Shown: positions 5,514-33,934 of the stretch, piece by piece | Position numbering within the stretch: the stretch's first letter is position 1 | Layout: each line of letters opens with the position of its first letter | Assembly (NCBI GenBank): GCA_022360105.1 | Contig: JAKSDL010000174.1 | Coordinates: forward strand, 1-64,000 | From: Pseudomonadota bacterium | GTDB taxonomy: Bacteria; SAR324; XYD2-FULL-50-16; JAHJRI01 | Length of the DNA stretch: 64,000 nucleotides | Direction: 5' to 3' | The notes under the pieces: generated by a model | Told to the model about the DNA's origin: nothing | The model's database searches: none | Seen by the model: the letters and a program-made list of their open reading frames with translations, nothing else | Program-made: the position numbers and the translations under genes

Positions 5514-7007
5514 TCAGGATGCAGCTTGAACCTGTTTTATCAAATACTCGAGCCCAAGAAACTCCGAACAGGTCTGGATCGCGCCAACTGTAACTCCTAA
5601 TACCCCATGCATGCCAATATTCTGACCGGTAAAGAAAAGATTGGGGATTTTTGTTCGGGCAGGGATATAGGTTTTGATTGGATTATTGCAATCCAAGGCG
5701 ATGCCATATATGGAACCGTTTTTCGTGCCGGTGTAATCCCGATAGGTCAATGGTGAGGAAGTATAGCATTTTTTTATTTTCTTACGAAATCCGGGTCTGT
5801 CTTTCTCCACAGCATCCAGCAATAATTCAGCTTTTTCTTTCTTGAACTGCCGGTACTCGTCTCCTCGACGATTTACGCTTGTATGTTGCCATTGCTTCAC
5901 TTCTTCGAAATCCATAAAGGTCATGATAATGGCACAAGTCGCATATTCGTCAGACCCTGATGTAGCAGGAGTAAGAAACATATATCCCTGTGGCCAGGGT
6001 TCGTTTTGATTCTCTTCCGTTTTCCAGACTGTGTCGGAGTTTATTCGGTAGTGATTGAAGTTCTCATAGGGATAGGCATTCTCCTGGAGGCATACAAATA
6101 CGGTGAACGACGATGTGGTGTTTTCAAGATTGTGAATTCTGTCACGATATGGTTTTCTGATTTCTTTACTGTCAATTAAATCCAATGTTACCGACGGATG
6201 GGTATTGGAAACAAACTGTTTTGCCTGTAACAGTTCTCCGTTATCTAACTCAGCATGTTTAATGACTCCATTTTCCACATGAAGCTTTTGGACTTTGCTG
6301 TTGATGAGAATGGATCCACCAAAAGAGCGAATATCATCTGCCAAAAAATCGGCAATTTGAGAGCTTCCATCAATCGGTCGCCAGGCACTGCTGATAAAGG
6401 AGTGCACAACCGTCGCGTGTAGATAAAGCGATGTTGTCTCTTTGTCACCGGCATAGAGAACGTTGAGACCCGCCAGCACATTTTGTAACAATTGATTATT
6501 AGTGATGGAATTCAGATAGTCGCTTAAATTTGCCGAAAAGTAGGGATTTAATGAAATAGTCGAATCAGGAACCCTAACGTTGTATAGATCCAGTGAATCA
6601 ACAACCTTTTGCATCTCGTTTGCGTAATTGACAATTGCCTGACGTTCTGAAGGAAATCTTTGAGCGAGGTTTTCTATCAGCCTTTCGTAGCCAATGGGGT
6701 ATTTGAATTGTTCATCATCGAGATCCAGCACGTCAAATCCGTCCTCATTCATTCGCTTCAGATTCAGCCTATCCATTAACCCAAAATATTTAAAATAACG
6801 ATTGGTAATTTGCCCCTCATCCAAGCTTCCGATGTAGTGAACACCGGTGTCAAAGATGCAGTCGTTGCGTTTAAAGGTTTGCAGGCAACCCCCGATTTGA
6901 CCGTTTTTCTCAACCACGCAAATGTTTTGTCCTTCTTTAGCCAGGATATGAGCTGAAAGTAGTCCTCCCAGGCCACTGCCGATGATGATTGTATCAAATG
7001 AATTCAT
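5514..7007 (-). CDS. CrtI/retinol-saturase-type FAD-dependent oxidoreductase
   Basis: The 497-residue flavoprotein opens with a dinucleotide-binding motif (IIGSGLGGLLSAHILAKEG) and an acidic residue in VVEKNGQIGG, as in phytoene desaturase and retinol saturase relatives. The C-terminal FFTGQNIGMHGVLGVTVGAI segment is the second FAD-contact region of that family. Relatives add or remove hydrogens at isolated or conjugated double bonds of long isoprenoid or acyl chains. It is the last gene of the cluster, beginning one base after the acyltransferase stop. In this setting it could adjust the unsaturation of the acyl product. Whether it desaturates, isomerises or reduces is not decidable from sequence. 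Confidence 0.87.
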   Translation of the reverse strand: MNSFDTIIIGSGLGGLLSAHILAKEGQNICVVEKNGQIGGCLQTFKRNDCIFDTGVHYIGSLDEGQITNRYFKYFGLMDRLNLKRMNEDGFDVLDLDDEQFKYPIGYERLIENLAQRFPSERQAIVNYANEMQKVVDSLDLYNVRVPDSTISLNPYFSANLSDYLNSITNNQLLQNVLAGLNVLYAGDKETTSLYLHATVVHSFISSAWRPIDGSSQIADFLADDIRSFGGSILINSKVQKLHVENGVIKHAELDNGELLQAKQFVSNTHPSVTLDLIDSKEIRKPYRDRIHNLENTTSSFTVFVCLQENAYPYENFNHYRINSDTVWKTEENQNEPWPQGYMFLTPATSGSDEYATCAIIMTFMDFEEVKQWQHTSVNRRGDEYRQFKKEKAELLLDAVEKDRPGFRKKIKKCYTSSPLTYRDYTGTKNGSIYGIALDCNNPIKTYIPARTKIPNLFFTGQNIGMHGVLGVTVGAIQTCSEFLGLEYLIKQVQAAS

Positions 7008-7008
7008 T

Positions 7009-8868
7009 TTATTTTATATATACCAATGCCTGGAAAGGGTTTGACGATATTGTCTTGTAATTGCTTTGGTTTAGAAAACCTGAGTGCTCTTGGAGCGAAT
7101 CCGTATCAATACCTGATTGCGAATAGAATACCAACAACCCTCCAACGGACAGTCTCTCGCTTAAATTTCCGAGTAACGACCGGAATAATCGATTCTCGAT
7201 GGTTGATCGATCCATATTAATTAGGGCCAGATCGCATTCATGATCGATGGACGAATGGTCTTGCAGATCCAGAAATTGTATTTTAGCTTGAATGCAATTT
7301 TCAGCGACGGTCTTTGCAATTCCCGTTTTTGTTTTATCCCATTCTAAGCCGGTTGCAGCCAGATTTGGGAATTTTTCATTCATTAAAAATATAATCTCTC
7401 CATAGTTGGAGCCGGCGTGCACGACTCCTGTTTGATATGCCCTGGAAAACAAGAAATCCAATAGGTCTCTGCAACACTTGACTGTATATCGGACCTGCTT
7501 AAGTGGTGAATACCCCTGGTAGGCGAACTTTAATAACAGCCGGTTGTTTAAAAACCCAGGTGTTTCACAGTCATTACGCACTCTGTTATATTCCTGTTTG
7601 AATGTTTTTGCAATGGTATTGCCTCGTTTGGAATACCCCTGATTGGGAGACCCGCTTTCCGGAGGAATTTTGGGTAGAATGGCCGCAGTTAGAGAGGTCT
7701 TCTTTAACACAAATTCTTTTTTAGTTATGCCCTCCCCAGTTCCATGAAAAACAACCGGCAATATGTCAAGATTAAGTTTCTCAGCCAGATAGAATGCTCC
7801 CTTTTTAAATCGCTTAATTTCCTTATCTTTAGAACGAGAACCTTCGGGAAATACAGCAATGGAATATCCCTTATTGACTGTTTTTTGTAAAGTTTCCAGG
7901 CTGTTCTCAATACCTGAGGAAACGGGATAATAATCTGCCCACCTTGCAACTGCACCGAATAAAGGTGAACTCCAAACCCAGTCATTCGTCAATAACACCA
8001 TTTTGGGATGAAGACTTTGAATGACGATTAAATCGATGAACGATTGATGATTGGCGATGATGACAGAGGGATGATCAAAGGTATTCCTGTTCTTATCAAT
8101 GATCGTCAGCCCCCTGGTTGTTGCTAAGATCAGGATCTTGCAAAACGACTTGATCGTCTTATGGTAATACAATTTGCGTTTTGTTTCGTTGGAAGGCCAT
8201 GGGAAAAGAACAAACAAAACAAATCCGAAAACAGTTAACAGCAAACAGCCGGTGATGAACAGCGTGTAAGCCATCAGGGTTCGCAATACCATCCGAAGTG
8301 TATAAGGGTAGCCGATCTTTTGCATCCTGTGGTGGATCAAAATTTCGGGTACAAACAAGGCGATGGTTACACAGACAATCAAAGACGAAACAAACCAGGC
8401 AATAAGCTCAAGATAACCAGATAAGCCCGACTCGGGAACATAAATCAGCATTCCATATCCGACCATCCCCGTGATCAATAATCCTAACAATACAGTCATT
8501 ATGTGAGGGGCTGACCCGATGAGCCTGGTAAGTAACGATTTTCTGAAAGACAGCGCAATATACCGGGTTAAAAAATCGATCTGTAAGGCTAAAAAAATAA
8601 GACTCAATGAAAAAACTGCAGGGGCAATCCCGGACCATGCCCCAATCAAAAACAGGCTGTTAAAGCCAATAGCGGCCAGTAGGAGGAGTAGGCCTTCCCA
8701 GTGACCTATTGAAAAGTAATATAACGGGATCAGAAGGGCGGTTATAATTCCGAATAATGGAGCAAAATGGTCTTCTTGAGGATATATCCCAAAATAATAG
8801 TAATTGAGGCATAAAAGAATAATTACCAACAAAGTGGTTTGAATATTTTGAGCAATTCGAAACAACAC
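7009..8868 (-). CDS. Membrane protein fusing a multi-TM region, PlsC acyltransferase and methyltransferase-like domain
   Basis: The 619-residue product has about eight hydrophobic helices in the first 240 residues. A lysophospholipid acyltransferase domain follows, with NHQSFID near residue 271 and FPEGSRSKD near residue 336, the HX4D and acceptor-binding motifs of PlsC enzymes. Residues about 475-610 look like a class I SAM methyltransferase fold with a degenerate glycine motif (VVHAGSNYGE), so methyl transfer is less certain. The start is GTG; no strong ribosome binding site is visible. It lies between the FabZ-like gene and the flavoenzyme. The architecture suggests an enzyme that acylates a lipid at the inner membrane, and possibly methylates it. 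Confidence 0.8.
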   Translation of the reverse strand: MLFRIAQNIQTTLLVIILLCLNYYYFGIYPQEDHFAPLFGIITALLIPLYYFSIGHWEGLLLLLAAIGFNSLFLIGAWSGIAPAVFSLSLIFLALQIDFLTRYIALSFRKSLLTRLIGSAPHIMTVLLGLLITGMVGYGMLIYVPESGLSGYLELIAWFVSSLIVCVTIALFVPEILIHHRMQKIGYPYTLRMVLRTLMAYTLFITGCLLLTVFGFVLFVLFPWPSNETKRKLYYHKTIKSFCKILILATTRGLTIIDKNRNTFDHPSVIIANHQSFIDLIVIQSLHPKMVLLTNDWVWSSPLFGAVARWADYYPVSSGIENSLETLQKTVNKGYSIAVFPEGSRSKDKEIKRFKKGAFYLAEKLNLDILPVVFHGTGEGITKKEFVLKKTSLTAAILPKIPPESGSPNQGYSKRGNTIAKTFKQEYNRVRNDCETPGFLNNRLLLKFAYQGYSPLKQVRYTVKCCRDLLDFLFSRAYQTGVVHAGSNYGEIIFLMNEKFPNLAATGLEWDKTKTGIAKTVAENCIQAKIQFLDLQDHSSIDHECDLALINMDRSTIENRLFRSLLGNLSERLSVGGLLVFYSQSGIDTDSLQEHSGFLNQSNYKTISSNPFQALVYIK

Positions 8869-8891: not shown

Positions 8892-9269
8892 TCAGGAAGG
8901 ACCGTCCAATTCAGATTGAAAGTAACCGGAAAACTTAAGAAAAACAGTCTCCCCAGCAGCCAACATTGCAGTTACCTTAACTCCTGGTGCAGAATCGACA
9001 TAGTCCAAAGTAAGATCTATCGGACTTGTTTGAGGAGTCAAAACATTTAGAAACTTTACACTTTTGGCGGATTTCAAAAACAAAGATTTCCCATAAACGC
9101 GTCCCAGCGTTTCCTTAACGATCTGGATTTGGCAGACACCGGGTGTAACAGGATTATTCGGGAAGTGACCTTTGTAAATAGGGTGCTTCGGATTTAAGCT
9201 TATTTGAGCTGCGGCTTCGGTCCCATTTACTTCCAGGTTAGATACGGTATAAAAGTTATTTTCAAGCAT
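8892..9269 (-). CDS. FabZ/FabA-like hotdog dehydratase
   Basis: This 125-residue hotdog protein carries the dehydratase signature GHFPNNPVTPGV with the likely catalytic H35. The usual FabZ glutamate position after PGV is occupied by Q49, with a glutamate at E53, so the catalytic acid may differ from classical FabZ. I use the ATG at 9269 (MLENNFYTVS), which matches the typical start of this family. A longer TTG-started frame reaches 9329 but would overlap the upstream radical SAM gene by 38 bases. It probably removes water from 3-hydroxyacyl-ACP to form the trans-2-enoyl unit of a polyene chain. Confidence 0.82.
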   Translation of the reverse strand: MLENNFYTVSNLEVNGTEAAAQISLNPKHPIYKGHFPNNPVTPGVCQIQIVKETLGRVYGKSLFLKSAKSVKFLNVLTPQTSPIDLTLDYVDSAPGVKVTAMLAAGETVFLKFSGYFQSELDGPS

Positions 9270-9291
9270 AGTTGTCTGCAGGTCCCTTCTC

Positions 9292-10557
9292 TTAAACTGC
9301 TTTTTCACTACCAAATGTTTTTCTGACAAGATTTCTTTTGCGAGGTCTGAAAGTATTGTCTGCTTTTTCTTTAAGCATCACTTTATGGAGCAGCTTAAAC
9401 ATTTTCAGATTTTGCGATTCTTTTTCGTAAAAAACATCCCAGGCATATTGCAGAAGTTCCTGCAATCTCTCGGCGCTCATGTGTTTAGGTTGGTATACTA
9501 CTTTGTCTGCCGAGTAGTCGTTCCAGTCGTAAGAAAGAATTCTCTTTTGGGCATGCAATTCATCAAAGGCCTGGGTATGGGGGAATGGTGTCAACACTGT
9601 GAATTCGGCCAGATCCAGGTTAATTTCCAGCAAAAAGTCTATCAATCGTTTAATATCGTCTTCGGTATGGTCGTCCATACCCAGGAGAATAGTGCCTTCC
9701 ACACCAATCCCGTGATCATGATAGCGCTGGATTCTCTCTTTGATATAATCGGAGGTATCAAAAACGGCTTGATAGACATACCAGGCCCCCGCCTGGGCCG
9801 CCAGGTCCAGGACCGTTGGATCATCTTCAATGGGATGACAGCACCATTTCTTTTTGAGAGGTATCATCTCTTTAAAAAGATCCAGTTCCCATTGCTTATC
9901 TTGGGCAAGAGAATTGTCAACTATAAAAAGCCTGTTGTTGTCAATGCTTTCCAGCTCTTCGATGGTTTTGTCTATGGGGCGAGGGCGAAATTGACAACCA
10001 CCGAGATAGGCTACAGCGCAAGGATAGCAATTAAAACGGCATCCCCTGGAGGCATGCACCAGGTCAACCATTTGCACACCCTTATAATTGTAATAATCCC
10101 TGTTCAGGATTTCTCGTCGCGCAGTTCCCACTGTTTCAATCGGAGGCAGGGAAGTCATATTGTCGTAAACCTTTTCCAAAGAGTTGTTTTTAAAATCATT
10201 AAAAACATCCTCCATTTTTCCTTCCGCTTCGCCCAGGAATACCGAATCCACATGTTCCTGGCATTCCTCTGCATGCAGCATGGTTGCAATGCCACCACAC
10301 ATGACAGGAATTCCTCGTTTTTTATATTCGGCTGCAATTTCCCAACCTCTTTTAATCTGCACAGTCAACATCATGGAAAGCCCTACAAAATCAACAGGGT
10401 CGTCGAAATTGATCTCTTCCACGTTTTCATCAACAAAGGTGACATCAACATAATCGGGAATGGTAGCCGCGAAAACCACAGGACCGTGGGGAGGCAAATG
10501 AAACGTGGTCTGTCCTTCCAGTTTTTTCCATTTGGGATAGATCAATGTAAACTTCAT
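9292..10557 (-). CDS. B12-binding-type radical SAM protein
   Basis: The 421-residue protein has an N-terminal Rossmann-like region of the B12-binding class (VDFVGLSMM, GIPVMCGGI, VFLGEAEG, residues 1-130). A radical SAM barrel follows with the [4Fe-4S] cysteines C173, C177 and C180 (CRFNCYPC). The C-terminal region resembles the DUF4070-type tail of hopanoid-tailoring and related enzymes. No DxHxxG motif is visible, so cobalamin may bind base-off without histidine, as in many members, or not at all. Enzymes of this class methylate or rearrange unreactive carbons. It sits between the acyl-CoA ligase and the FabZ-like gene, which points to an acyl-chain substrate. The reaction is unknown. Confidence 0.9.
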   Translation of the reverse strand: MKFTLIYPKWKKLEGQTTFHLPPHGPVVFAATIPDYVDVTFVDENVEEINFDDPVDFVGLSMMLTVQIKRGWEIAAEYKKRGIPVMCGGIATMLHAEECQEHVDSVFLGEAEGKMEDVFNDFKNNSLEKVYDNMTSLPPIETVGTARREILNRDYYNYKGVQMVDLVHASRGCRFNCYPCAVAYLGGCQFRPRPIDKTIEELESIDNNRLFIVDNSLAQDKQWELDLFKEMIPLKKKWCCHPIEDDPTVLDLAAQAGAWYVYQAVFDTSDYIKERIQRYHDHGIGVEGTILLGMDDHTEDDIKRLIDFLLEINLDLAEFTVLTPFPHTQAFDELHAQKRILSYDWNDYSADKVVYQPKHMSAERLQELLQYAWDVFYEKESQNLKMFKLLHKVMLKEKADNTFRPRKRNLVRKTFGSEKAV

Positions 10558-10578: not shown

Positions 10579-12210
10579 TTATTCTTCAACCGAATCCAGT
10601 TCTTCTCTTAACAATCGTCTTAGCGGTTTTCCGATTTTGTTTTTAGGTATATCTTCCACGAATTTAAACGTTCGGGGAACTTGATAATCTGCAAGATGTT
10701 GATGGCAAAAGGTCGAAAGCTCTTTTCGGTCAGGCTTGGAATCTATCGCCGAAATCAAACAGGCCGTGATCGATTGTCCTCGTTTAGGATCATCCCTGCC
10801 GACAACAACGGCGTCCTGGATGCCGGGATGCTTTTTCAGAGTTTCTTCAATCTGGCTGGGGTACACATTGAATCCCTTGGAAATAATCAAATCGTCCTTG
10901 CGATCTACCAGGTATAAATAGCCTTGCTCATCCATGTATCCCAGGTCACTGGTAAACAACCACCCGTCTTCCAGGCTGCGGTTTGTCTTCTCTTCGTCCT
11001 GCCAATACCCTTTCATTACCTGGGGACCTTTGATGGCAATTTCACCAATATCACCTTGTTTACACTCCTTGTCCCGATTATCCAGACCAACTATTTTAAT
11101 ATCTGTGTCAGGTAAGGGCAATCCGACACTTTCTGAGATTTTACCATTGATAAAGGGACTGATGACCGCTGTGGAGGAAACTTCCGAAAGGCCGTAAGCC
11201 TGGGATATAAAATTGCCTGTTAATTTATGATGTTTTTCCTGAATATCGATCGACAAAGGTGCACCCCCGCCGCTAGCCACTTCAATTGATGATAAATCCG
11301 CCCTCTTCACTTCGGAGCTGGAAACCAAGGCCGACCAAAGAGCCGGAACAGCCGGGAAGGAAATGGGATTGTATTTCCGGATGGCATCCAAAATACTGAT
11401 GACCGACGACCAGTCGAATTGAGGGAACAATACCATTTTGTAACCACTTAAGATGGATACATGCATGCAGACTGTCATTCCAAATACGTGAAAAAAAGGA
11501 ATAATGCAAAGGACTGCCCTATTTTCTGTGGTCTTTCTGGTATTCCAGGAATCGATCTGAATGAGATTACTGATCAGGGTTCGATGAGTCAAGATAGCTG
11601 CTTTTGGTGTCCCGGTAACGCCACTTGTGTACTGCAAAACCGCGATATCATCCGGCTGAGCTTCAGTCTCGCAACCCTGATTACCAAATCTTTCTACTAA
11701 ATCGTTTACGATGTGAATAGGTGGTAGCTGGTCAGGATTTACGATCTCTTTTTCCATTCCAAACACCGAATGAATTAAAATATGCTCTACCGAAGTTTCC
11801 GAGACAATATCGGTGACATTCTTAAGAAAAATATCCAGAGTTACAACTGCCTTTACCCCTGAATGGTTCAAAATTCGTTTTAACTCCTCTCCGTGGTTCA
11901 TCACGTTAATGTTTGCAACAATAGCTCCCAGTTTGACAACGGCGTAATAAGCCACAACATAAGTCGGCGAATTGGGTAATAGCAGGGCTATCCGATCTCT
12001 TTTTTGGATGCCAAGGTGTTTCAAACCATTGGCTAAACCGATTACCTTAAACAGAAGCTCTTTATAAGTTATTTCCAGATCGTTAAAACAAACAGCCAGG
12101 TAATTGGGATGTTTGCTTACTGTCATCTCCAACAGGTCTGATATTGTCCAATCAGGGTATTTCAGGGTTTCCGGTACTCCCGGATCGTAGTGCTTTTGCC
12201 ACGGTTTCAT
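10579..12210 (-). CDS. Long-chain acyl-CoA synthetase-like AMP-binding enzyme
   Basis: The 543-residue member of the adenylate-forming family has the phosphate-binding loop YTSGVTGTPKAA near residue 192, the SDLGYMDEQGYLYLVDRKDD hinge region near 415, and the C-terminal PKNKIGKPLRR segment with the adenylation lysine. It should activate a carboxylic acid with ATP to an acyl-adenylate, then a CoA (or ACP) thioester. Length and motifs match fatty acyl-CoA ligases. Its start overlaps the plsY stop by four bases (ATGA-type coupling). It is the second AMP ligase of the cluster; the other is PaaK-like. The specific acid is unknown. Confidence 0.93.
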   Translation of the reverse strand: MKPWQKHYDPGVPETLKYPDWTISDLLEMTVSKHPNYLAVCFNDLEITYKELLFKVIGLANGLKHLGIQKRDRIALLLPNSPTYVVAYYAVVKLGAIVANINVMNHGEELKRILNHSGVKAVVTLDIFLKNVTDIVSETSVEHILIHSVFGMEKEIVNPDQLPPIHIVNDLVERFGNQGCETEAQPDDIAVLQYTSGVTGTPKAAILTHRTLISNLIQIDSWNTRKTTENRAVLCIIPFFHVFGMTVCMHVSILSGYKMVLFPQFDWSSVISILDAIRKYNPISFPAVPALWSALVSSSEVKRADLSSIEVASGGGAPLSIDIQEKHHKLTGNFISQAYGLSEVSSTAVISPFINGKISESVGLPLPDTDIKIVGLDNRDKECKQGDIGEIAIKGPQVMKGYWQDEEKTNRSLEDGWLFTSDLGYMDEQGYLYLVDRKDDLIISKGFNVYPSQIEETLKKHPGIQDAVVVGRDDPKRGQSITACLISAIDSKPDRKELSTFCHQHLADYQVPRTFKFVEDIPKNKIGKPLRRLLREELDSVEE

Positions 12211-12806
12211 GTGCGTGCTCTTTGTTTTGACTTTGTGTAAGCTTCAATGACGTTCTTTTTATGACTGATAATGATGAAAGAGGCTGTTAATATAGTGCCG
12301 CTTATGGCGCCGTTATTTTCTTTGAAGATTAAAATAGTGCCGGTTCCTAAAACTGCCACCATAGCAAATGAGGCTATAAATGGTTTTTTTGTGATCAAGT
12401 TAACAGCAACCCATGTGATGCCGGAAACCAGGGCGGCCCAGAAAGTCAATACGGCTGAGAATCCCAGGAAGTTTGCAACACCTTTGCCGCCTTTAAATCC
12501 GTGGAAACACGGGTATCTGTTACCAAGAATTAAACAAAAACCGATCCAGGTTATAAAAGTATTGTCCAGAAAATAGACCGCAGCAAACGCCACGGCAACG
12601 GCTCGCCCAATATCAAGCAATAATACCACCACAGCCCAGAATATTCCTGCCTGCCGGTACACATTGGTTGTTCCGGGATTTCCACTGAAGCCCTTACGGG
12701 GGTCCTCTTTGCCCAGCAATTTGAACAGAACAATGGAAAAATTGATGGAACCTGCCAGATAGGCAATGAAAGCGATGATGAAAGGAATTGTCAGTTGATT
12801 CAGCAT
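12207..12806 (-). CDS. plsY: Glycerol-3-phosphate acyltransferase PlsY (acyl-phosphate dependent)
   Basis: The 199-residue, five-to-seven-helix membrane protein has the PlsY motifs: AGSINFSIVLFKLLGKEDPR, SGNPGTTNV with the conserved GNPG(A/T)TN loop, and HGFKGGKGVA. PlsY moves an acyl group from acyl-phosphate to the sn-1 position of glycerol-3-phosphate, giving lysophosphatidic acid at the inner membrane. A plsY inside a secondary-metabolite-like operon is unusual. Together with the neighbouring plsC and the FakA-like kinase gene (18489-20207) it suggests that the cluster builds its own phospholipid. It could instead be the sole housekeeping copy caught in the operon. Confidence 0.95.
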   Translation of the reverse strand: MLNQLTIPFIIAFIAYLAGSINFSIVLFKLLGKEDPRKGFSGNPGTTNVYRQAGIFWAVVVLLLDIGRAVAVAFAAVYFLDNTFITWIGFCLILGNRYPCFHGFKGGKGVANFLGFSAVLTFWAALVSGITWVAVNLITKKPFIASFAMVAVLGTGTILIFKENNGAISGTILTASFIIISHKKNVIEAYTKSKQRART

Positions 12807-17663: not shown

Positions 17664-17667
17664 GGTT

Positions 17668-22780: not shown

Positions 22781-22793
22781 GAGAGACTCTGTA

Positions 22794-25194: not shown

Positions 25195-25197
25195 GTT

Positions 25198-26657: not shown

Positions 26658-26666
26658 GTTTTTTCC

Positions 26667-27332
26667 TTATTTTTCGAGGTTTTTTTCAAAATACAGGTCT
26701 TCCATGGTCTCTGCTGAAAAAAGCCAGGTCTCCTTTGATTTCGCAGCCATTTTTCTGCGTTCAACCAGGAAGAGTATCGACTCATATTCATGTTTGAGAC
26801 CAAGGTCCACCCAACCAAGTATGACAGCACTTGTTGTTGAGTCATTCAGAAGGCTGGCTGCGTAGTTTTTTAAGTTCTCAAAATCCGGCAACTGGGAGAC
26901 AAAAAAGATGCTTTCTCCTTTTATATCAAACTTAATTGCCACTTCCCCAATGAGCAGGTTGGGCAGGGTGTAAACAAAGATACCGGGGTTTGGATAATAA
27001 TTATCTTTATCTGCTATGGTTTCCAGATAGTTATTGTCCGTTTCCAGTGATGATTGGGAGTTCGATGCCACTATAGCGATCTGATCACTCTCATAGGACG
27101 TTAAACACTTACCGGAATCAGTCAAAAAATCAGTTGTTAAGAATCCCAATTTACTCAATAGATCCATTTTATAAAACTTCGGGTATTCAGAGCCAAAGGT
27201 TTTATAAACAGATGACAAAAATGCTGAGAAATTAGCACCTTCGCTTTCCTCAATAATTTTTTCTCCGTTGAGAATGATTCGTTTGTTCCTAATCAGACAA
27301 TAACGACTGATGAGATATTCAGAAGCTTCCAT
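26667..27332 (-). CDS. Small ketosynthase-like protein without catalytic residues
   Basis: The product of about 221 residues resembles the truncated KS N-terminal-like proteins found in flexirubin and aryl polyene loci: YPKFYKMDLLSKLGFL, IVASNSQSSLETDNNY and NPGIFVYTLPNLLIGEVAIK are characteristic. It lacks the C-H-H triad. The ATG at 27332 matches the usual family length; a GTG at 27365 would add 11 residues and enlarge the overlap with the upstream KS gene (stop at 27319). A structural partner role for a ketosynthase is likely. No enzymatic activity is expected. Confidence 0.78.
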   Translation of the reverse strand: MEASEYLISRYCLIRNKRIILNGEKIIEESEGANFSAFLSSVYKTFGSEYPKFYKMDLLSKLGFLTTDFLTDSGKCLTSYESDQIAIVASNSQSSLETDNNYLETIADKDNYYPNPGIFVYTLPNLLIGEVAIKFDIKGESIFFVSQLPDFENLKNYAASLLNDSTTSAVILGWVDLGLKHEYESILFLVERRKMAAKSKETWLFSAETMEDLYFEKNLEK

Positions 27333-28473
27333 GTTTTGACAATAATAATCCGGCGTTACAGCCACCGAAGCCGGAAGCCAGTTTTAGACAATGATGAAGG
27401 GAGGTGCCCTGTGTTTTTTTGATCACATTCAGTGCTTTGGCTGTACCTTTTGTGCGAAAACCTTTGGTCGCAACAAGCGTGTTTTCCCGCATGGACTGAA
27501 GGCAGGCTGCCGTCTCCAAAACACCCGCTGCCCCAAGGGTATGGCCAAAATAGCCTTTCAAGCTGTTTACCGGGATTTTATCCAGTTCCGAACGATGCAA
27601 GGCATGGGATTCCATGTCGTCGTTATAGAGTGTGGCCGTGCCATGAGCGGAGATGGTGTCTACTTCTTGTTTATTTTGATTTGTTAGTTGCAGGGTTTTT
27701 TTAATTGCAAGGTGTAATCCCTCTCCGGTAGGGGAAGGACCGGAAATATGGTTAGCATCGTTTGCACTGGCGCCGCCTCGAACAACAATTTGCTCAGGAT
27801 GCGATAAAGCGGGTTCGGACGTCAGTATGACGGTCCCGGCGCCTTCTCCCAATGAAAGTCCTTTCCTGTTTTTATCATAAGGTTTGCAAGGTTTTTCACT
27901 TAATGCCTTAAATGCCTGAAAGCCGGACACTACAAATTTCGTTGCGATATCAACTCCGACAACCACAACATTTCTGTAAAGTTTTTGTTCCAAATATTTT
28001 TGAGCAGTTAGCAGAGCAAGAACCCCTGAAATACAAGCGTTGGAAACAACCAACGGTGGATTGGGGTTGCAGAAAAAGCTGGTGATTAACTGCGCAGTAT
28101 CCCACAATTTTACTCTTTCCGGAGCGAAAGGTGACTTTTCATTGCCGAGTAAATCGATGTTCCCTTTTGTGGTGGAAAGAATAATAAGCGTGTTTGGGTT
28201 GGCAAGGTCGATGTCAGTGTTGGCAAGGGCATAGCGAATGGAGGTGATGGCCAGCTTTTCCAAACGAGTAAATTCCTTGGCATTGGCAACATCGGAAAAG
28301 CATTCATCCAAGCGATTTGTATTTACCAGGGAAATGCAACAGTCAATATCAAGCCAGTCTTCAGGTTTATGCTTTTTTATCCCGGATGTCCCCGCCTTCA
28401 TTTTCTGCATATTCTCATAAGTTGAGAATCCCAGGGAAGTTATCATATTGTCACCAGCAATGTAAGTCGTCAT
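27319..28473 (-). CDS. Beta-ketoacyl synthase
   Basis: The 384-residue ketosynthase has C147 in SNACISGVLAL, histidine in SAHGTATLYNDD and histidine in YFGHTLGAAGV, so the triad is complete. It is slightly shorter than FabF. It overlaps the small KS-like gene downstream, and the two may pair. Similar enzymes in aryl polyene clusters carry out the first condensation or form a second KS heterodimer. Its exact step is unknown. Confidence 0.93.
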   Translation of the reverse strand: MTTYIAGDNMITSLGFSTYENMQKMKAGTSGIKKHKPEDWLDIDCCISLVNTNRLDECFSDVANAKEFTRLEKLAITSIRYALANTDIDLANPNTLIILSTTKGNIDLLGNEKSPFAPERVKLWDTAQLITSFFCNPNPPLVVSNACISGVLALLTAQKYLEQKLYRNVVVVGVDIATKFVVSGFQAFKALSEKPCKPYDKNRKGLSLGEGAGTVILTSEPALSHPEQIVVRGGASANDANHISGPSPTGEGLHLAIKKTLQLTNQNKQEVDTISAHGTATLYNDDMESHALHRSELDKIPVNSLKGYFGHTLGAAGVLETAACLQSMRENTLVATKGFRTKGTAKALNVIKKTQGTSLHHCLKLASGFGGCNAGLLLSKHGSF

Positions 28474-28489
28474 GAATTCCTTTTACTCC

Positions 28490-28906
28490 CTAAACAATTT
28501 TCCAGTGACGTTTCCATTGCTCAAACATCGGTGGAATAGCTAATTGCAGCTGTCTTTTTTTGTCAAGAAAGACTTGTGTGGTAGACCCTGTAGTCACCAG
28601 CTCTTCGGTTGCTGCATTGTATATTTCGTAATCAAACAGGATTTTTGCGGCAGGAGAATCTACGTATCGGGTGATAATCTTAATTGAATCACCATATTTG
28701 ATATCTCTTTTATAATTGAGATCCATTTTAACGATCGGGACTATAAACCCGGCATTGAAAAAATCCATGTAGTTGAAGTTAAACTCCTTGCCAAATGCTT
28801 CCCTGCCATCTTCCATGTACTTGACGTAGTGACCGTGCCACACGATGCCCAAGGGATCAACTTCGCAAAACCTTATTTTTGAATGGGTGGTGCTTACCAG
28901 ATCCAT
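28490..28906 (-). CDS. Hotdog acyl-CoA/acyl-ACP thioesterase (4-hydroxybenzoyl-CoA thioesterase-like)
   Basis: The 138-residue protein has the signature EVDPLGIVWHGHYVKYMEDG with D17 at the catalytic aspartate position of the 4-hydroxybenzoyl-CoA thioesterase (YbgC) group. It should hydrolyse acyl or aroyl thioesters. In aryl polyene loci such a thioesterase releases or proof-reads the chain. Here free acid release would feed the FakA/FakB-like protein encoded downstream. Confidence 0.9.
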   Translation of the reverse strand: MDLVSTTHSKIRFCEVDPLGIVWHGHYVKYMEDGREAFGKEFNFNYMDFFNAGFIVPIVKMDLNYKRDIKYGDSIKIITRYVDSPAAKILFDYEIYNAATEELVTTGSTTQVFLDKKRQLQLAIPPMFEQWKRHWKIV

Positions 28907-28919
28907 GCAGTCAAACCTG

Positions 28920-29357
28920 TTATTCTTGAATAAAAAGTTTCATGTCGCACTGAGCGGCGACTCTATTTCCGTTGGTTACAATTCCCTTGACCACTGATAT
29001 ATTCATGACCTTGTGCGTCAAGGTCACAGTCGTTTTTAAAGTATCACCGATTTTGGGAAGATGAAAAATGTTTAGCTTTTGAACAGCGCCAATAAATCCA
29101 AGCGGAATCGGTTCATTTTTATCGATATATTGTTGTCCCGATCCTGCTGCCGAGGTCTGGGCAACGTTTTCTATCAACCCGGCTTCGCTCAATCGATCGT
29201 TTTCCAGAAGAATATTATCCCCTTTTATGGTAAACGCGGTTTCGAATTCCTTTTCGTCAACCTTTAACAAAGAATCTATCATTATCATTGGCGGACGTTG
29301 AGGGATCAGTTCCAACAAGGCGTCTCCCTTGGCAACTATTTGATCAGTAATTCCCAT
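28920..29357 (-). CDS. Beta-hydroxyacyl-ACP dehydratase of the FabA/FabZ-like hotdog type (ApeP-like)
   Basis: The 145-residue hotdog protein contains IPQRPPMIMIDSLLK near the N-terminus, LIENVAQTSAAGSG near residue 61 and GFIGAVQKLNIFHLPKIGD, the pattern of the dehydratases in aryl polyene clusters. The glutamate of ENVAQ fits the catalytic acid of FabZ-like enzymes. It overlaps the upstream radical SAM gene by 22 bases, implying coupling. It is the second dehydratase of the cluster and probably forms the conjugated double bonds. Confidence 0.85.
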   Translation of the reverse strand: MGITDQIVAKGDALLELIPQRPPMIMIDSLLKVDEKEFETAFTIKGDNILLENDRLSEAGLIENVAQTSAAGSGQQYIDKNEPIPLGFIGAVQKLNIFHLPKIGDTLKTTVTLTHKVMNISVVKGIVTNGNRVAAQCDMKLFIQE

Positions 29358-30694
29358 AACGGACCTTTCAAACCTCTTTTTCGCATCATTTCCATTGGTT
29401 TCTGGAAATTCTCATCAGGAAATATCCAACGATTTTGGGTTTCCCGGGCTCTTTTTTTAACGGATTCAAAATCTATATCTTCCACAAGGTAATATATCGG
29501 ATCCAACAGCGAGTCCTCCCTTTTAATTTTACCTTCGGCGACAGCTTGTTCATAAACACCTGTGTGTGGGTAAATCCTCATGCCAAAATATGGGAAAAAG
29601 ACTGTTTTATCAATACATTTGCTGTTTTGGATGGTCTCTGCAACCGTTTGCTCCGATTCCCCGGGACCACCGAGAATCAGGAAATGAGCAGTAAACAGGT
29701 CCAGTTTTTTGCATAATCCTGCAGTTTCAAAGACATCTTCGACCAAAAAATTTTTATTATAGGCTTTCAGAGTTGAATTTGAAAGGGATTCAGTGCCGAA
29801 TTCCAAGTGAGTTAAACCTGATTTTTTTAAAAGTGCCAGTAATTCAAAATCAAGATTATGGGGCGTGAAATAGGCTCCCCATTGAATATTTAACTCAGCG
29901 CGAACGATATGTTCCGCAAGTTCAATATTATAGGGGTTGTGAATATTAAATACCGAATCGGTAAAGAAAAAATAATCAATTCCCTTGTTTTTATTTAATT
30001 CTTTTAATGACCATACTACCTTTTCAGGATTGTGGGCTCTTATCTTTGCCCCATCGATTAGCGGGTAGGTGCAGTAAGCACAGCGATAAGGACATCCTCT
30101 TTTGGTTTGCAGGTTCAGCATACCGGCTGTTTCCCAGTAGTGATCAACCAGATGGTCATCAAAAATCAGTTCCGGGTCTTTACAATAAGTCTTACGTTGG
30201 TTAAAAACCACCTCTCCATCGTTCAAATATAAAAGGCCTTCTATATCAGCAACATTTCTATCTTCACGTAATGCATCAATAAGCTGGTATAAAGATTCTT
30301 CACCCTCGCCAAAAACACCATAATCAGGACGAATCAAGTTAAAGATAGTCTCGGGAAAGATGGAAAAACCAGCTCCCCCTAAGACAGTCATTGCATCCGA
30401 GTGACTTTTGACTTCTTCAATGAGATCCCTGCATTCCTGAACAAAGTGGATATCGTTAAAATAATTGACGGTATCGATATTTCTAAGTGAGAATCCCACC
30501 AAGTCCGGCTTAAATTCCAAAAGTAACTTCCGAAAAAAAGCAAGATCATCATTGTTGAAATCGAAAAGCTCTATTTCCAAACCAGTGGATCGTTTTTCCA
30601 AATACGATTTTAAATAGGAAAGAGCCAGCGGGTATACTGGATATGGTTCTCTAAAGCGATTTGGCGAAACAAGTAAAATCTTAGTTAGGAGCAT
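29336..30694 (-). CDS. B12-binding-domain radical SAM protein
   Basis: I chose the ATG at 30694 because GGGAG lies seven bases upstream; an ATG at 30721 adds nine residues. The 452-residue product has an N-terminal B12-binding-like Rossmann domain (ILLVSPNRF, FKPDLVGFSLRN, VLGGAGFSIFPE, YGVFGEGEESL). The radical SAM cluster motif is C201, C205, C208 (CPYRCAYC). Downstream LEFGTESLS and FLILGGPGESE fit the barrel. It is encoded between the LpxL-like acyltransferase and the dehydratase. Likely actions are C-methylation, cyclisation or another radical change of the chain. The substrate is not known. Confidence 0.9.
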   Translation of the reverse strand: MLLTKILLVSPNRFREPYPVYPLALSYLKSYLEKRSTGLEIELFDFNNDDLAFFRKLLLEFKPDLVGFSLRNIDTVNYFNDIHFVQECRDLIEEVKSHSDAMTVLGGAGFSIFPETIFNLIRPDYGVFGEGEESLYQLIDALREDRNVADIEGLLYLNDGEVVFNQRKTYCKDPELIFDDHLVDHYWETAGMLNLQTKRGCPYRCAYCTYPLIDGAKIRAHNPEKVVWSLKELNKNKGIDYFFFTDSVFNIHNPYNIELAEHIVRAELNIQWGAYFTPHNLDFELLALLKKSGLTHLEFGTESLSNSTLKAYNKNFLVEDVFETAGLCKKLDLFTAHFLILGGPGESEQTVAETIQNSKCIDKTVFFPYFGMRIYPHTGVYEQAVAEGKIKREDSLLDPIYYLVEDIDFESVKKRARETQNRWIFPDENFQKPMEMMRKRGLKGPLWELLIK

Positions 30695-31595
30695 GTTTTT
30701 CTCCCTTTTGCCAAAAGTCATAGAAATTGAACCACTGGTGGGGATACTTTTTTACAAACTCTTCCAAAGTGTTGATATAAGAAACAGCTAAATCACCTAT
30801 TTGTTGCTGTTTATCTGCCTGTATATCTTTCTCAAATGGATAGTGAACCGGGGAAGCGAAACAACGATAATTGAAGCCCTTTTCTTTGGTCGTAAAGATG
30901 AAGGAAACCGGGACTTTTAACTGCACGGCCATGGCGAAAGGACCGAGCGGAAATTCTGTCTCTTCTCCTAAAAAAGGCAGGCGAATTGTTTTGGTGCCTT
31001 GTAAAAACCGGTCGCCGTGTATTGCTATCAGTTCTTTTTTTTTCAATGATTTTGCTACCCGCAATATGTGCGTATAATCATCCTTAACCGGGATAATATC
31101 CAGTTTTTTACTACTTGGAGATGCATCAATCACTTGTTTGATTTTTTTATGTTCGGCCTCCAGCATCAATATTTTCGGTTTGAATCCTAATTCCTCCATT
31201 AACTGACCAGACAGTTCCCATCCGCCAAAATGAGCACATATCAAGATCCCGCCTTTGCCCATCTCTGCAATTTGGTTCAAGTGTTGGTTACCTTCGGAAA
31301 TGTGTCCAATTCTATTACTAAAGCCATTAAACAAGGCAACTTTGTCCAATAATATTTGTCCAAAAGTGTAAAAATTGTTGTAGACGGCTATTAAAGCCGG
31401 GAATAAGCCAAGGCCAAGACGCGAACGATAGAAATAAAGCAGGGATTTGACGGAATTGTAGGAAAAAAGGAGGAAATAGGCAGCTACAAACCTAAGAAAA
31501 AAGTAAGCAAAGGACAAGCCTAAATGTTTTAGGACCACTATAAAAAACAAATGCCCCAGGTATCCTCCTCTGCTTTTCCCTTTCCATGATGACAT
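30681..31595 (-). CDS. LpxL/HtrB-like acyltransferase
   Basis: The 304-residue protein has a hydrophobic N-terminal region (two helices) and the catalytic block AHFGGWE near residue 119, then AIHGDRFLQGTKTIRLPFLG, which is the second conserved region of this acyltransferase group. The C-terminal HQWFNFYDFW matches the sister protein at 13669-14544. It lies just after the first ACP gene, so an acyl-ACP donor is plausible. The acceptor may be a glycolipid or the growing product. Confidence 0.88.
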   Translation of the reverse strand: MSSWKGKSRGGYLGHLFFIVVLKHLGLSFAYFFLRFVAAYFLLFSYNSVKSLLYFYRSRLGLGLFPALIAVYNNFYTFGQILLDKVALFNGFSNRIGHISEGNQHLNQIAEMGKGGILICAHFGGWELSGQLMEELGFKPKILMLEAEHKKIKQVIDASPSSKKLDIIPVKDDYTHILRVAKSLKKKELIAIHGDRFLQGTKTIRLPFLGEETEFPLGPFAMAVQLKVPVSFIFTTKEKGFNYRCFASPVHYPFEKDIQADKQQQIGDLAVSYINTLEEFVKKYPHQWFNFYDFWQKGEKHAPN

Positions 31596-31621
31596 AATTC
31601 ATAAAACTAAAGGTTCACAAA

Positions 31622-31864
31622 CTATTTAGCTCTTTCAGCAACAAAATCATAGAAGTCCTGAAGAGTTTTTATCTCAGTCATTTCTTCCGGCACAACTTTG
31701 AAACCAAAATTCTTTTCAATAATAACAACCAAATCCACCAGATCCAGACTATCGATTTCCAGAGTCTCCATTAGGTTTTCATCCGGTTGAAGCTGGTCTT
31801 CTTCAATTTCAAATTCTTCGATGAGTAAATTATTAATAGTTTCAATAATTTGATCTTTTTGCAT
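31622..31864 (-). CDS. Acyl carrier protein
   Basis: The 80-residue acidic protein has IDSLDLVDLVV with the modified serine S39. It is encoded 26 bases after the FabB/F-like KS stop and before the LpxL-like acyltransferase. Having two ACPs is usual in aryl polyene loci, where one may carry the starter and the other the growing chain. The two copies here are clearly divergent from each other. Confidence 0.95.
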   Translation of the reverse strand: MQKDQIIETINNLLIEEFEIEEDQLQPDENLMETLEIDSLDLVDLVVIIEKNFGFKVVPEEMTEIKTLQDFYDFVAERAK

Positions 31865-31890
31865 AGGATCTCCGTTTCTACTTTTATAAA

Positions 31891-33114
31891 TTATTCCTGA
31901 TACTTTTTTATAATAATTGATGCATTGGTACCTCCAAAACCAAATGAATTGGATAAAAAGGTATCTATTTTTGTTTCTACGGTTTGGGCGGGAATGTTTA
32001 GTTGGGCTGCTTCTTCACAAGGTGATTCCAGATTAATGTTTGGAGCTATAAACGAATTGTGCATCATGATCATGGCATAAATGATCTCACTTGAGCCTGC
32101 CATCCAGCATTCGTGACCTGTCATCGATTTGGTCGACGTGACGTAGGGTTTATGGTCGCCAAACACCTGTTGGATAGATTTTGCTTCGTTCATGTCCCCC
32201 ACGGGAGTGGAAGTCGCATGGGCGTTGATATAGTCGATTTCCTTGCTGTCAACTTTCGCATCTTTCAAACATAGTTCAAGGGCTCTTACCGGTCCTTCCA
32301 CATTAGGAACAGAGATATGATCTCCGTTGGAAGAAAATCCGTACCCGATCACTTCGCCCAAAATAGTTGCGTTTCTTTGTTTGGCTGATTCCAGGCTTTC
32401 CAGAATGACTGTTGCCCCCCCTCCGCTGGGAACAAGTCCGTCCCTGTTTTCATCAAAAGGTCTGGAAGCTTCTTCAGGCTGGTCCTCCCTGGTGGAAAAG
32501 GCACTGAGGCCATCAAAACTGGCCATGGAAAAAGCATTGATCTCTTGAGCACCGCCACAAATGACTTGATTTTGCAGACCGTGCCTGATCAGAAAATACC
32601 CCATGCCGATGGAGTGGGAGCCACTGGCACAGGCGCCACTAATGGTGAAGTTCACCCCCTTCAGTTTAAAAATCGTTGCCAGGTTCATGGTCACGGTTGA
32701 ATTCATCGATTGAAAAATCGAAGCAGATCCCAGGAGAGTCGTATCCCTTTTCTCCTTGACCAGTTCAGCTGCTTCAATGACTGCCTTTGCTGAACTATCA
32801 TTGCCATAAAGGATGCCGACTTCATTATTTTCAAGAAACTCCATATCGATTCCGGCTTGTTCCAGGGCTTCTACCGTTGCCACATAGGCATATTCACCTT
32901 CTTCAGCCAGACCTATTCTGTCCCTGCGTTTTAATTTACCCTTAAGTTCCGGTCGTTCAACCATTCCTGTCAGGGCAGAGCGGAACCCCATGTCTTTTCT
33001 GGGCGGGTCAAACACTATACCTGACTTACCCTGGTAAAGAGATTCCTTGACTTCTTCTGTATTTTTTCCCAGGCAGGAGTAAATACCCATACCCGTGATG
33101 ACCACCCTGTTCAT
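31891..33114 (-). CDS. FabB/FabF-like beta-ketoacyl-ACP synthase
   Basis: The 407-residue condensing enzyme has C162 in SGACASGSHS, histidine in NAHATSTPVGDMNE and histidine in KSMTGHECWMAG, a full C-H-H triad. The MTGHECWMAGSSE block is more FabB-like than the other KS genes here. It follows fabG by 94 bases. Together with fabG and the first ACP it forms the front block of the operon and may do the main elongation. Confidence 0.95.
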   Translation of the reverse strand: MNRVVITGMGIYSCLGKNTEEVKESLYQGKSGIVFDPPRKDMGFRSALTGMVERPELKGKLKRRDRIGLAEEGEYAYVATVEALEQAGIDMEFLENNEVGILYGNDSSAKAVIEAAELVKEKRDTTLLGSASIFQSMNSTVTMNLATIFKLKGVNFTISGACASGSHSIGMGYFLIRHGLQNQVICGGAQEINAFSMASFDGLSAFSTREDQPEEASRPFDENRDGLVPSGGGATVILESLESAKQRNATILGEVIGYGFSSNGDHISVPNVEGPVRALELCLKDAKVDSKEIDYINAHATSTPVGDMNEAKSIQQVFGDHKPYVTSTKSMTGHECWMAGSSEIIYAMIMMHNSFIAPNINLESPCEEAAQLNIPAQTVETKIDTFLSNSFGFGGTNASIIIKKYQE

Positions 33115-33208
33115 TTATCACTCCGGCATATATGACTTAACTTTCCAAATGAAATCTAATCATACATCGTCATAGACGAAATCCATAATGGTTTTTGATT
33201 ATTTGTGA

Positions 33209-33934
33209 TCAGGAATAGAGCCCGCCATTTACCGATATCGTTTCGCCGGTAATATATGATGATTTCTCCGACGCCAGAAAACCAATCAATTCTGCAACCT
33301 CCTCCGGTTCACCAAATCGATTGAGAGGAATGAGTTTTTTTAATTCTTTTTCCGGCATGGCATGGGTCATTTCTGTCTTTATAAAGCCCGGTGCTACAGC
33401 ATTCACAGTCACTTTCCGCTTTCCGACTTCCTGGGCCAAAGCTTTTGTTGCTCCGATGATACCCGCTTTGGCTGCTGAATAGTTTACCTGGCCTGGAACA
33501 CCTTTTTGTCCTGATAAAGACACGACATTGATAATTCTTCCATATTTGTTAGCCAGCATGTCTTTTAAAACCAAACGGGTTACAAAAAAGAAGCTGTTTA
33601 GGTTGGTATTCATGACCGAAGTCCATTCTTCGGTTTTCATCCACATTAACAGATTGTCTTGGGCAATGCCGGCGTTGTTAACTAACACTTCGATGGTTTC
33701 TTCATGACTGTCGATCCAGCCACCCAATATAGATTCAACACTGGTCTGATCGGACACATCAAAAGGAAGTAATTCGGCCCTGCCTCCTTTTTCTTTGAGT
33801 ATCTCAAGCGTGTTATCTGCTTCTTCCCGGTTGGAACGATAGTTTATCAACACATGATAACCCATTTCTGCCAGGCGACAGGTAATGGAACGTCCAATGC
33901 CCCTTGATCCCCCGGTTACTAACGCGACTTTCAT
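33209..33934 (-). CDS. fabG: 3-oxoacyl-ACP reductase FabG
   Basis: The 241-residue short-chain dehydrogenase has the NADPH motif TGGSRGIGR at residue 8, NNAGIAQDN near 89, and the catalytic YSAAKAG tyrosine and lysine near 150. VNAVAPGFIKTEM and the C-terminal YITGETISVNGGLYS are typical of FabG. It reduces 3-ketoacyl-ACP to 3-hydroxyacyl-ACP with NADPH. It is the first gene of the biosynthetic run, with a candidate promoter 80 bases upstream. It may be dedicated to the cluster rather than the housekeeping enzyme. Confidence 0.95.
   Translation of the reverse strand: MKVALVTGGSRGIGRSITCRLAEMGYHVLINYRSNREEADNTLEILKEKGGRAELLPFDVSDQTSVESILGGWIDSHEETIEVLVNNAGIAQDNLLMWMKTEEWTSVMNTNLNSFFFVTRLVLKDMLANKYGRIINVVSLSGQKGVPGQVNYSAAKAGIIGATKALAQEVGKRKVTVNAVAPGFIKTEMTHAMPEKELKKLIPLNRFGEPEEVAELIGFLASEKSSYITGETISVNGGLYS

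Follow-up and report, generated by a model that had tools for sequence, protein, structure and literature searches.

Bacterial aryl polyenes (APEs) are made by ketosynthase (KS)/chain length factor (CLF) systems of the ApeO/ApeC type, which yield aryl-type polyenes (passages of PMC8358021); in Escherichia coli the starter is 4-hydroxybenzoate, and the cluster carries no lyase. The biosynthesis of ladderane (ladder-shaped) lipids is unsolved. The gene lists for Kuenenia and Desulfotalea contain radical S-adenosylmethionine (SAM), phytoene-dehydrogenase-like, phenylacetyl-CoA-ligase-like and non-canonical FabF proteins, as well as an acyl carrier protein (ACP), a glycosyltransferase, a membrane transporter, a deacetylase and a methyltransferase (passages of PMC2649909). 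Clusters called 'ladderane' have been reported in many phyla with no shown link to ladderane lipids, and SAR324 is not named where the Cariaco paper lists these phyla (passages of PMC9902471). Here we describe a 27-gene cluster in a 64,000-nucleotide window (contig JAKSDL010000174.1, positions 1 to 64,000; 'the window' hereafter), which we infer from its nearest relatives to belong to the phylum SAR324. The cluster resembles bacterial yellow-pigment clusters more than ladderane-lipid loci. Our preferred reading, to which we assign a probability of about 0.62, is that it belongs to the aryl-polyene/flexirubin superfamily and would make a polyene chain that is tailored by radical chemistry and mounted on a lipid of its own. 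No prior description of this cluster was found in the open-licence PubMed Central (PMC) literature (titles and abstract starts), nor any open-licence PMC paper that brings together flexirubin, radical SAM and gene cluster; papers holding both SAR324 and ladderane do not tie the two in their SAR324 passages. We found no characterised member of this cluster type.

The cluster consists of 27 minus-strand open reading frames (ORFs) packed into positions 5514..33934 of the window with intergenic gaps of -107 to 142 bp, which bears out the operon-like run proposed in the sequence-only reading. The -107 bp overlap depends on the TTG start of a 258-amino-acid (aa) ORF (20247..21023), the first ATG of which is at 20954. 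Family scans (Pfam and NCBIfam), with the 232-aa ORF placed by profile and model and the lipoprotein by its lipobox, agree with the families listed in that reading (fabG, KSs and their partners, ACPs, dehydratases, a thioesterase, ligases, radical SAM enzymes, acyltransferases and transport proteins). Two of its entries are refined: the MMPL protein is present but had been described without the methyltransferase fused to its C terminus, and the kinase is more exactly a fusion of a FakA kinase domain with a DegV fatty-acid-binding protein (FakB). Neither promoter-like sites (31 versus 31.0 in shuffles) nor terminators (18 versus 16.5) were in excess at 20000-36500, so that support for co-transcription comes from spacing and synteny only. 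The genes are as follows, in order from the first gene of the run, with a neighbouring deacetylase placed last.

33209..33934, minus strand: FlxB ketoreductase (short-chain dehydrogenase/reductase, SDR), first gene of the run; NCBIfam NF053542, 388.8 bits (cut-off 340); top Pfam model PF13561 (general SDR model); 46% identity to the E. coli APE reductase; Ser-Tyr-Lys.
31891..33114, minus strand: KS407, FabB/ApeR-like ketosynthase; Cys-His-His complete; 36% over 407 aa to E. coli ApeR.
31622..31864, minus strand: ACPa, acyl carrier protein; PF00550; NF003757, 67.9 bits (cut-off 65); 39% to APE ACP1.
30681..31595, minus strand: LABLAT1, lipid-A-type acyltransferase; PF03279; 27% to the E. coli APE GT2/acyltransferase.
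29336..30721, minus strand: B12-binding radical SAM enzyme, TIGR04072, 433.5 bits (cut-off 360); CxxxCxxC.
28920..29357, minus strand: DH_a, hotdog dehydratase subunit; E..AQ motif; weak FabZ match; 27% to Ape_DHb, E 0.007.
28490..28906, minus strand: TE, 4HBT thioesterase; PF13279; 31% to the APE thioesterase.
27319..28473, minus strand: KS384, ketosynthase; Cys-His-His complete; 31% to ApeO; best PDB match 6qsp_A.
26667..27365, minus strand: chain-length-factor-like partner of 232 aa; profile match to 6kxd_B, E 1.4e-4; AlphaFold mean pLDDT 83.
26403..26657, minus strand: ACPb, APE-type carrier protein; NF006617, 73.9 bits (cut-off 70); 44% to APE ACP2.
25198..26406, minus strand: KS402, ApeO-like ketosynthase; Cys-His-His complete; 33% to ApeO.
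24139..25194, minus strand: KSlike351, chain-length-factor-like partner; active-site Cys lost; 25% to the ApeC CLF, 20% to ApeR.
22794..24110, minus strand: FlxY-like (PaaK family) acyl/aryl-CoA ligase; NF053551, 462.6 bits, below the cut-off of 520.
21665..22813, minus strand: SPASM-domain radical SAM enzyme; PF04055, PF13186; CxxxCxxC plus eight Cys in residues 265-352.
20917..21522, minus strand: LolA-like periplasmic lipid carrier; PF03548; NF053544 (flexirubin LolA2), 97.6 bits, below the cut-off of 125.
20247..21023, minus strand: lipoprotein with an ISAC lipobox, translation perhaps starting from the ATG at 20954 instead; adjoins LolA in relatives too.
18489..20207, minus strand: FakA (Dak2) plus FakB (DegV) fatty-acid kinase fusion of 572 aa; PF02734, PF21645, PF02645.
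17668..18447, minus strand: GT2 glycosyltransferase; PF00535; 33% to the APE GT2.
14571..17663, minus strand: MMPL exporter with C-terminal class I SAM methyltransferase, 1030 aa; PF03176, PF13649; DIGCGYG motif.
13669..14544, minus strand: LABLAT2, lipid-A-type acyltransferase; PF03279.
12890..13672, minus strand: PlsC-like acyltransferase; PF01553; NHQSYLD (HX4D).
12207..12806, minus strand: PlsY-like glycerol-3-phosphate acyltransferase; PF02660, 122.8 bits; NCBIfam PlsY, 102.8 bits, below the cut-off of 137.2.
10579..12210, minus strand: FadD-like acyl-CoA ligase; PF00501; long-chain acyl-CoA ligase families, no cut-off reached among the 25 best matches.
9292..10557, minus strand: B12rSAM2, second B12-binding radical SAM enzyme; CxxxCxxC; no NCBIfam cut-off reached.
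8892..9329, minus strand: DH_b, hotdog dehydratase subunit; GHFPNNPVTPG with catalytic His; 28% to APE DHa; match to 6qsr.
7009..8868, minus strand: AT619, PlsC-type acyltransferase of 619 aa; PF01553; NHQSFID (HX4D).
5514..7007, minus strand: CrtD/CrtI-like FAD enzyme (desaturase or isomerase family); TIGR02733, 128.3 bits, far below the cut-off of 549.7.
36193..37044, minus strand: NodB-type polysaccharide deacetylase, perhaps functionally linked; PF01522.

The chain-building core is, in composition, that of APE/flexirubin clusters. At E ≤0.01, the E. coli APE cluster contains counterparts of the reductase, the three KSs, one KS-like partner, both ACPs, both dehydratase subunits and the thioesterase, and also of GT2, LABLAT1, LABLAT2, PlsC, AT619, MMPL, LolA and FadD; the radical SAM enzymes, FlxY, CrtD, PlsY, FakA-FakB, the lipoprotein and the 232-aa protein had no match there at E 0.01. 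Alignment showed the Cys-His-His triad to be intact in KS407, KS402 and KS384 and absent from KSlike351, and both ACPs hold the Ser, as all three radical SAM enzymes hold CxxxCxxC. The 232-aa protein (26667..27365) matched no Pfam or NCBIfam family; the best fold matches of its model were KSs and CLFs, the top one being chain B of 6kxd, entitled ishigamide ketosynthase/chain length factor (chains of 9s5h were set aside as KS relatives, their origin not being shown). With this protein modelled as a CLF-like KS relative, the cluster is likely to contain two KS-CLF pairs, and adjacency of the genes would indicate which KS pairs with which partner. At the gene level, the heterodimer type of APE systems (ApeO-ApeC) is thus represented by KS402 and KS384 with KSlike351 and the 232-aa protein, and the second, homodimer-type KS (ApeR) by KS407. 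The two ACPs are separate, and the dehydratase is split, with the His motif GHFP..P..PG in DH_b only and E..AQ in DH_a, whose context is like that of Ape_DHb (an EAAAQ string in the N-terminal third of DH_b is taken as chance). The reductase exceeds the cut-off of flexirubin-type FlxB (388.8 versus 340 bits). No dedicated enoyl reductase was seen among the 27 genes of the run, so that, judged from the families and intact motifs, the expected intermediate is a conjugated polyenoyl-ACP. The APE-like cluster supports the earlier proposal of a polyunsaturated acyl chain bound for a lipid.

The absence of a dedicated enoyl reductase from the run and the presence of a CrtD-like enzyme would also suit anaerobic synthesis of methylene-interrupted polyunsaturated fatty acids (PUFAs) or hydrocarbons, which Rattray and colleagues proposed for Desulfotalea; D. 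psychrophila makes the polyunsaturated hydrocarbons C31:8 and C31:9 (passages of PMC2649909). We regard this as improbable for the window. KS/CLF systems of the ApeO/ApeC type make aryl-type polyenes, and the motifs of the window's enzymes are intact. In addition, all four SAR324 relatives carry a PfaA-like omega-3 synthase over the cut-off (main frames of about 1,500 aa versus 2,582 model positions, which may be other secondary-lipid synthases); the window cluster is therefore not needed to explain PUFAs in these organisms, and PUFA synthesis as its needed function was rejected.

To place TIGR04072, a family named for ladderanes, we compared 80 loci, which are the best 80 of 272 matches to one radical SAM query, so that the share of flexirubin-type loci among them is not a census. 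Those outside SAR324 (L005-L080) are nearly all from Bacteroidota (the few exceptions include L013, L022, L049, L072 and L077), and their stretches reach at most 10 kb to either side; FlxA was scored as a tblastn match to FlxA of L020. After dropping 18 of the 80 loci without FlxB in the stretch and four with <1.8 kb upstream, 58 remained, and 48 of these had a homologue of FlxA (tyrosine ammonia-lyase) ≤600 bp before FlxB (48/54 outside SAR324, 0/4 in SAR324). Twelve core genes each occur in 33-42 of the 42 loci of at least 18 kb outside SAR324 when an ORF is counted once (34-42 in a looser count, in which KS numbers may include paralogue cross-hits and the 36/42 for LABLAT2 is a cross-hit), and these 42 loci contain FlxA in 37, DarG in 35 and DarH in 34 cases. 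By best hit, the core order is fully collinear in 43 of the 55 loci with at least nine core genes, SAR324 loci included; the other 12 deviate in some cases by KS cross-hits and in others by true rearrangement (L009). In L020, FlxA scores 818.4 bits (cut-off 700). An even draw of 149 genomes from the class of G054 (inferred to be Bacteroidia), G054 included, contained FlxA over the cut-off in 25 genomes, TIGR04072 in two (both with FlxA, one being G054) and B12rSAM2 in G054 alone. TIGR04072 is an accessory of flexirubin-type clusters in most loci examined, and a rare one.

These data bear on a ladderane-like product, in which radical SAM and CrtI-like enzymes would cyclise the polyene chain into concatenated cyclobutanes or other rings. 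The window's TIGR04072 protein is over the cut-off, and the same gene classes figure, by description, in the lists for Kuenenia and Desulfotalea (passages of PMC2649909); the few non-methylating B12-radical-SAM enzymes make rings or rearrangements (passages of PMC13142503), and the weak NCBIfam matches of B12rSAM2 include BchE and HpnJ. We nevertheless consider such a product quite improbable. Because TIGR04072 sits in flexirubin-type clusters with a lyase homologue in 48/54 loci outside SAR324, the marker is not specific and alone is no sign of cyclobutane rings, and we rejected it as evidence for them; of the mix proposed in the sequence-only reading, the aryl polyene part finds support, and ladderane-type enzymes as a second pathway do not in that form. 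The SPASM-radical-SAM and FlxY genes occur in 0/42 such loci and CrtD in two (six by a looser test). The window's CrtD bears a family resemblance only to CrtI-like enzymes, with a score that stays well short of the equivalog threshold. Ladderanes were looked for and not found in D. psychrophila, which has syntenic clusters (passages of PMC2649909), and candidate anammox genes, some candidates being left out, were expressed in E. coli without success (passages of PMC4790861). A structure search with the methyltransferase domain did not list AmxMT1 at E 0.01, and a link between the two was rejected.

The cluster recurs in SAR324 relatives. The four nearest genomes (G001-G004) fall in one phylum, probably SAR324, and the closest locus (L001, SAR324 cluster bacterium) has 85% identity in the radical SAM enzyme and 94% in KS407. 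Scattering of the genes in relatives would have spoken against a single cluster; instead, G003 and G004 contain 27/27 genes in an order identical to that of the window, and 23/27 are visible on contig pieces of G001. G002 has 22/27 genes split over two loci: the first carries both CLF-like genes together with FlxB, the TIGR04072 enzyme, DH_a, KS384, ACPb and KS402, and the second carries FlxB, KS407, ACPa, DH_a, TE, ACPb, LolA, the lipoprotein, FakA-FakB, GT2, MMPL-methyltransferase, LABLAT2, PlsC, PlsY, FadD, B12rSAM2 and DH_b; LABLAT1, FlxY, SPASM-radical-SAM, AT619 and CrtD were not seen in G002. Gene order kept over a long evolutionary distance indicates that the co-location is more than chance, and chance co-location of the 27 genes was rejected for this reason. 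The cluster is real, conserved and of lipid type, and most probably functions in the manner of an aryl polyene system. Among 52 SAR324-phylum genomes, B12rSAM2 was found at E ≤1e-60 in G001-G004 alone and TIGR04072 over its cut-off in seven. Two other genomes of the phylum (L103 and L104) carry TIGR04072 over the cut-off beside an ApeO-like KS (39-44%) without B12rSAM2. G004 also holds a further cluster (L144, 8500-14600) with a B12rSAM2 paralogue (57%), a KS, an ACP and two CLF-like matches (24-26%).

The NodB-type deacetylase (36193-37044) adjoins the cluster on its upstream side in L001, L003 and L004, and stands last in one of the G002 loci; outside SAR324, 17/26 loci have a homologue within 500 bp after the KS core. 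Judged by this recurrence, it is part of the conserved neighbourhood. Two Lcl_C-domain proteins are also encoded upstream of the cluster (34202-35680 and 37061-38965, minus strand); the 492-aa one recurs there in L001, L003 and L004 and the 634-aa one in L001 and L004.

B12rSAM2 was also followed into delta-proteobacterial loci (L128-L143), which come from the phylum of G053, probably Desulfobacterota. The gene was found in 19/198 genomes of this phylum, G053 included, and 16 of its 20 places were analysed (leaving out G207, G346, G373 and a second place in G288). Its identity to the window protein is 58-77% (median 71%), and the next-best medians are 53.5% for GT2 (10 loci) and 52% for FakA-FakB (9), with TIGR04072-like enzymes at 34% (12); by these identities, B12rSAM2 is the most conserved cluster gene between phyla. 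At least five distinct polyene-cluster genes lie near it in 15/16 loci, compared with one, the gene used to fetch them, in each of five comparison loci (a non-random draw). Both B12-radical-SAM enzymes sit in polyene-type clusters in three lineages, and the CrtI-like, SPASM-radical-SAM and FlxY genes recur in 2-3 of the 16 delta-proteobacterial loci, the host kind of Rattray's Desulfotalea comparison. The full-length MMPL-methyltransferase fusion is found in 4/4 SAR324 relatives and three delta-proteobacterial loci. In a midpoint-rooted FastTree phylogeny (in which G001 is a 329-aa piece), B12rSAM2 of the window and of three SAR324 genomes falls next to Bacteroidota and that of G002 with the delta-proteobacterial sequences, which suggests that the gene moved between phyla.

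The genes next to B12rSAM2 may link it with the supply of starters or with the chemistry of the head group. In 5/16 delta-proteobacterial loci (L128, L133, L134, L136 and L138), it directly adjoins a MIO-type ammonia-lyase (ASGDL), and in 4/16 an APE-type ligase; its neighbours in the window are FadD and DH_b. These lyases are 62-85% identical among themselves and 27-33% to three FlxA proteins, and form a distinct subfamily, of which the two members scanned by NCBIfam reach no cut-off.

Such neighbours, together with a FlxB over its cut-off, a core closely akin to that of FlxA-bearing loci and the use of 4-hydroxybenzoate by the E. coli APE system without a clustered lyase, would agree with a true flexirubin or aryl polyene lipid, whose hydroxyphenyl head comes from general metabolism and whose radical SAM enzymes do no more than methylate or trim it. 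Such a lipid would fall within our best explanation as a special case and, taken as the whole account, is a tentative possibility that we hold to be the less probable course. The SAR324 type is without a lyase, and FlxA or another clustered lyase as its source of an aryl starter was rejected, none being found among the window ORFs scanned; FlxY is under its cut-off. No Dar family was among the NCBIfam matches listed for the 27 genes (for five proteins the best 25 only), neither DarG nor DarH having a match, and a DarH gene lies elsewhere in one of the four relatives' genomes (G004, on a contig other than L144). FadD matches the E. coli APE ligase at 23% (E 0.002). For want of FlxA and Dar genes, we do not class the cluster as flexirubin, and with its marker unspecific we do not class it as ladderane either.

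Several observations weigh against an aryl-polyene/flexirubin-type system that mounts a radically tailored chain on its own lipid. Sequence identity with the E. coli APE counterparts is low, at 20-46%. No aromatic ammonia-lyase, and hence no cluster-encoded source of an aryl starter, was found among the 50 window ORFs scanned; FlxA is over the cut-off in 0/4 SAR324 relatives' genomes, and the best lyase-family gene in each of G001, G003 and G004 lies in a context without cluster genes (a check that leaves out further G004 matches on C26, C33 and C45). FlxY scores 462.6 bits against its own cut-off of 520 and has no BLAST match to the E. coli APE ligase at E 1. The top Pfam model of FlxB bears the name enoyl-ACP reductase, although NCBIfam places the protein with FlxB; this makes the absence of enoyl reduction uncertain, and a reductase encoded at another place in the genome could carry it out. 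The TIGR04072 family has other settings besides polyene clusters, its radical SAM genes in L016 and L022 (50% to the window's) having no polyene cluster in the stretch, and in L139 (1/16) B12rSAM2 has only two polyene-cluster neighbours. Lastly, PlsY, FakA-FakB, PlsC and FadD fit an ordinary phospholipid route equally.

Compared with flexirubin-type clusters, the SAR324 cluster is without a lyase and adds FakA-FakB, PlsY, PlsC, a FadD-like ligase, a SPASM-radical-SAM enzyme and a CrtD-like enzyme. Judged by what their families do, FakA-FakB, PlsY and PlsC together would let a free acid be phosphorylated and then transferred to glycerol phosphate, and the cluster appears to carry its own lipid-assembly line. 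GT2 and the NodB-type deacetylase suggest an amino-sugar head group. The richness in radical SAM enzymes indicates that the cluster is probably for anoxic life.

On our preferred reading of a tailored, lipid-mounted polyene, an acid starter would be activated by FlxY and/or FadD and loaded onto an ACP. KS407 and the two KS/CLF pairs would extend it with malonyl units, with reduction by FlxB and dehydration by DH_a-DH_b. The B12-radical-SAM pair, the SPASM enzyme, the CrtD-like flavoenzyme and the methyltransferase may then tailor the chain or the head group. TE would free the acid, FakA-FakB would convert it to an acyl phosphate and PlsY would place the acyl group on glycerol phosphate, after which PlsC and the LABLAT enzymes would complete the lipid and GT2 and the deacetylase would add an amino-sugar part. 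MMPL, LolA and the lipoprotein would carry the product to the outer membrane.

In a bolder form of this scheme, the product would be an outer-membrane lipid of a new class: the B12- and SPASM-radical-SAM enzymes would cyclise or cross-link a conjugated polyene, which would enter glycerolipids through the acyl-phosphate route of FakA-FakB, PlsY and PlsC. We hold this to be rather doubtful; if it were true, B12rSAM2 would perform the defining reaction and the ladderane genes of anammox bacteria would have split off from an ancient anaerobic line of the aryl polyene family. For non-anammox bacteria, the synteny of TIGR04072 offers a polyene-type product class as an alternative to ladderanes. The high conservation of B12rSAM2, which reaches no NCBIfam cut-off, and the apparent lipid-assembly line make radical chemistry testable on ACP-bound polyenes.

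Elsewhere in the window, a flavin mononucleotide (FMN) riboswitch (RF00050, 81 bits; 1-120, minus strand) lies at the edge. An alternative-complex-III-like respiratory module (49027-53979, minus strand) comprises ActD-like, NrfD-like and molybdopterin/FeS proteins, with a cytochrome c7/c3-type protein at 54104-54664. LolA_like and MMPL genes at 55348-58797 (minus strand) are a possible second lipid-export pair, and two DsrE-like proteins with a Sulf_transp-family transporter (60206-63151, plus strand) perhaps form a sulphur-metabolism island.

Among known systems, the APE clusters of E. coli CFT073 (L086) and Xenorhabdus doucetiae share with the SAR324 cluster a KS-CLF plus a second KS, two ACPs, a FabG-type reductase and a split dehydratase, as well as TE, GT2, acyltransferases, MMPL and LolA. 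The E. coli cluster differs in having a single KS-CLF pair versus two, a methyltransferase encoded by a separate gene rather than fused to MMPL, and a ligase that window FlxY does not match. The proposed ladderane clusters of Kuenenia stuttgartiensis and their syntenic counterparts in Desulfotalea psychrophila are alike by published description, in that each class has a SAR324 member when the deacetylase is counted (passages of PMC2649909); this comparison is one of gene classes, the anammox candidate genes being kuste2802-2805, 3335-3352 and 3603-3608. Delta-proteobacterial clusters share B12rSAM2 (16/16), LolA (10), GT2 (10), FakA-FakB (9) and MMPL-methyltransferase (8, full-length fusion in 3), but their KS and TIGR04072-like genes are only about 34-36% alike, gene order differs, and some carry a MIO ammonia-lyase or APE-type ligase beside B12rSAM2. 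Flexirubin-type TIGR04072 clusters such as L020 share the twelve core genes, the radical SAM enzyme among them, and also their order. Unlike the window, L020 carries FlxA, DarG-family, DarH and ABC transporter genes, and FakA-FakB and PlsY, like FlxY and SPASM-radical-SAM, occur in 0/42 stretches of this type outside SAR324, with PlsC in 0 or 1 and CrtD in 2 or 6, depending on the threshold.

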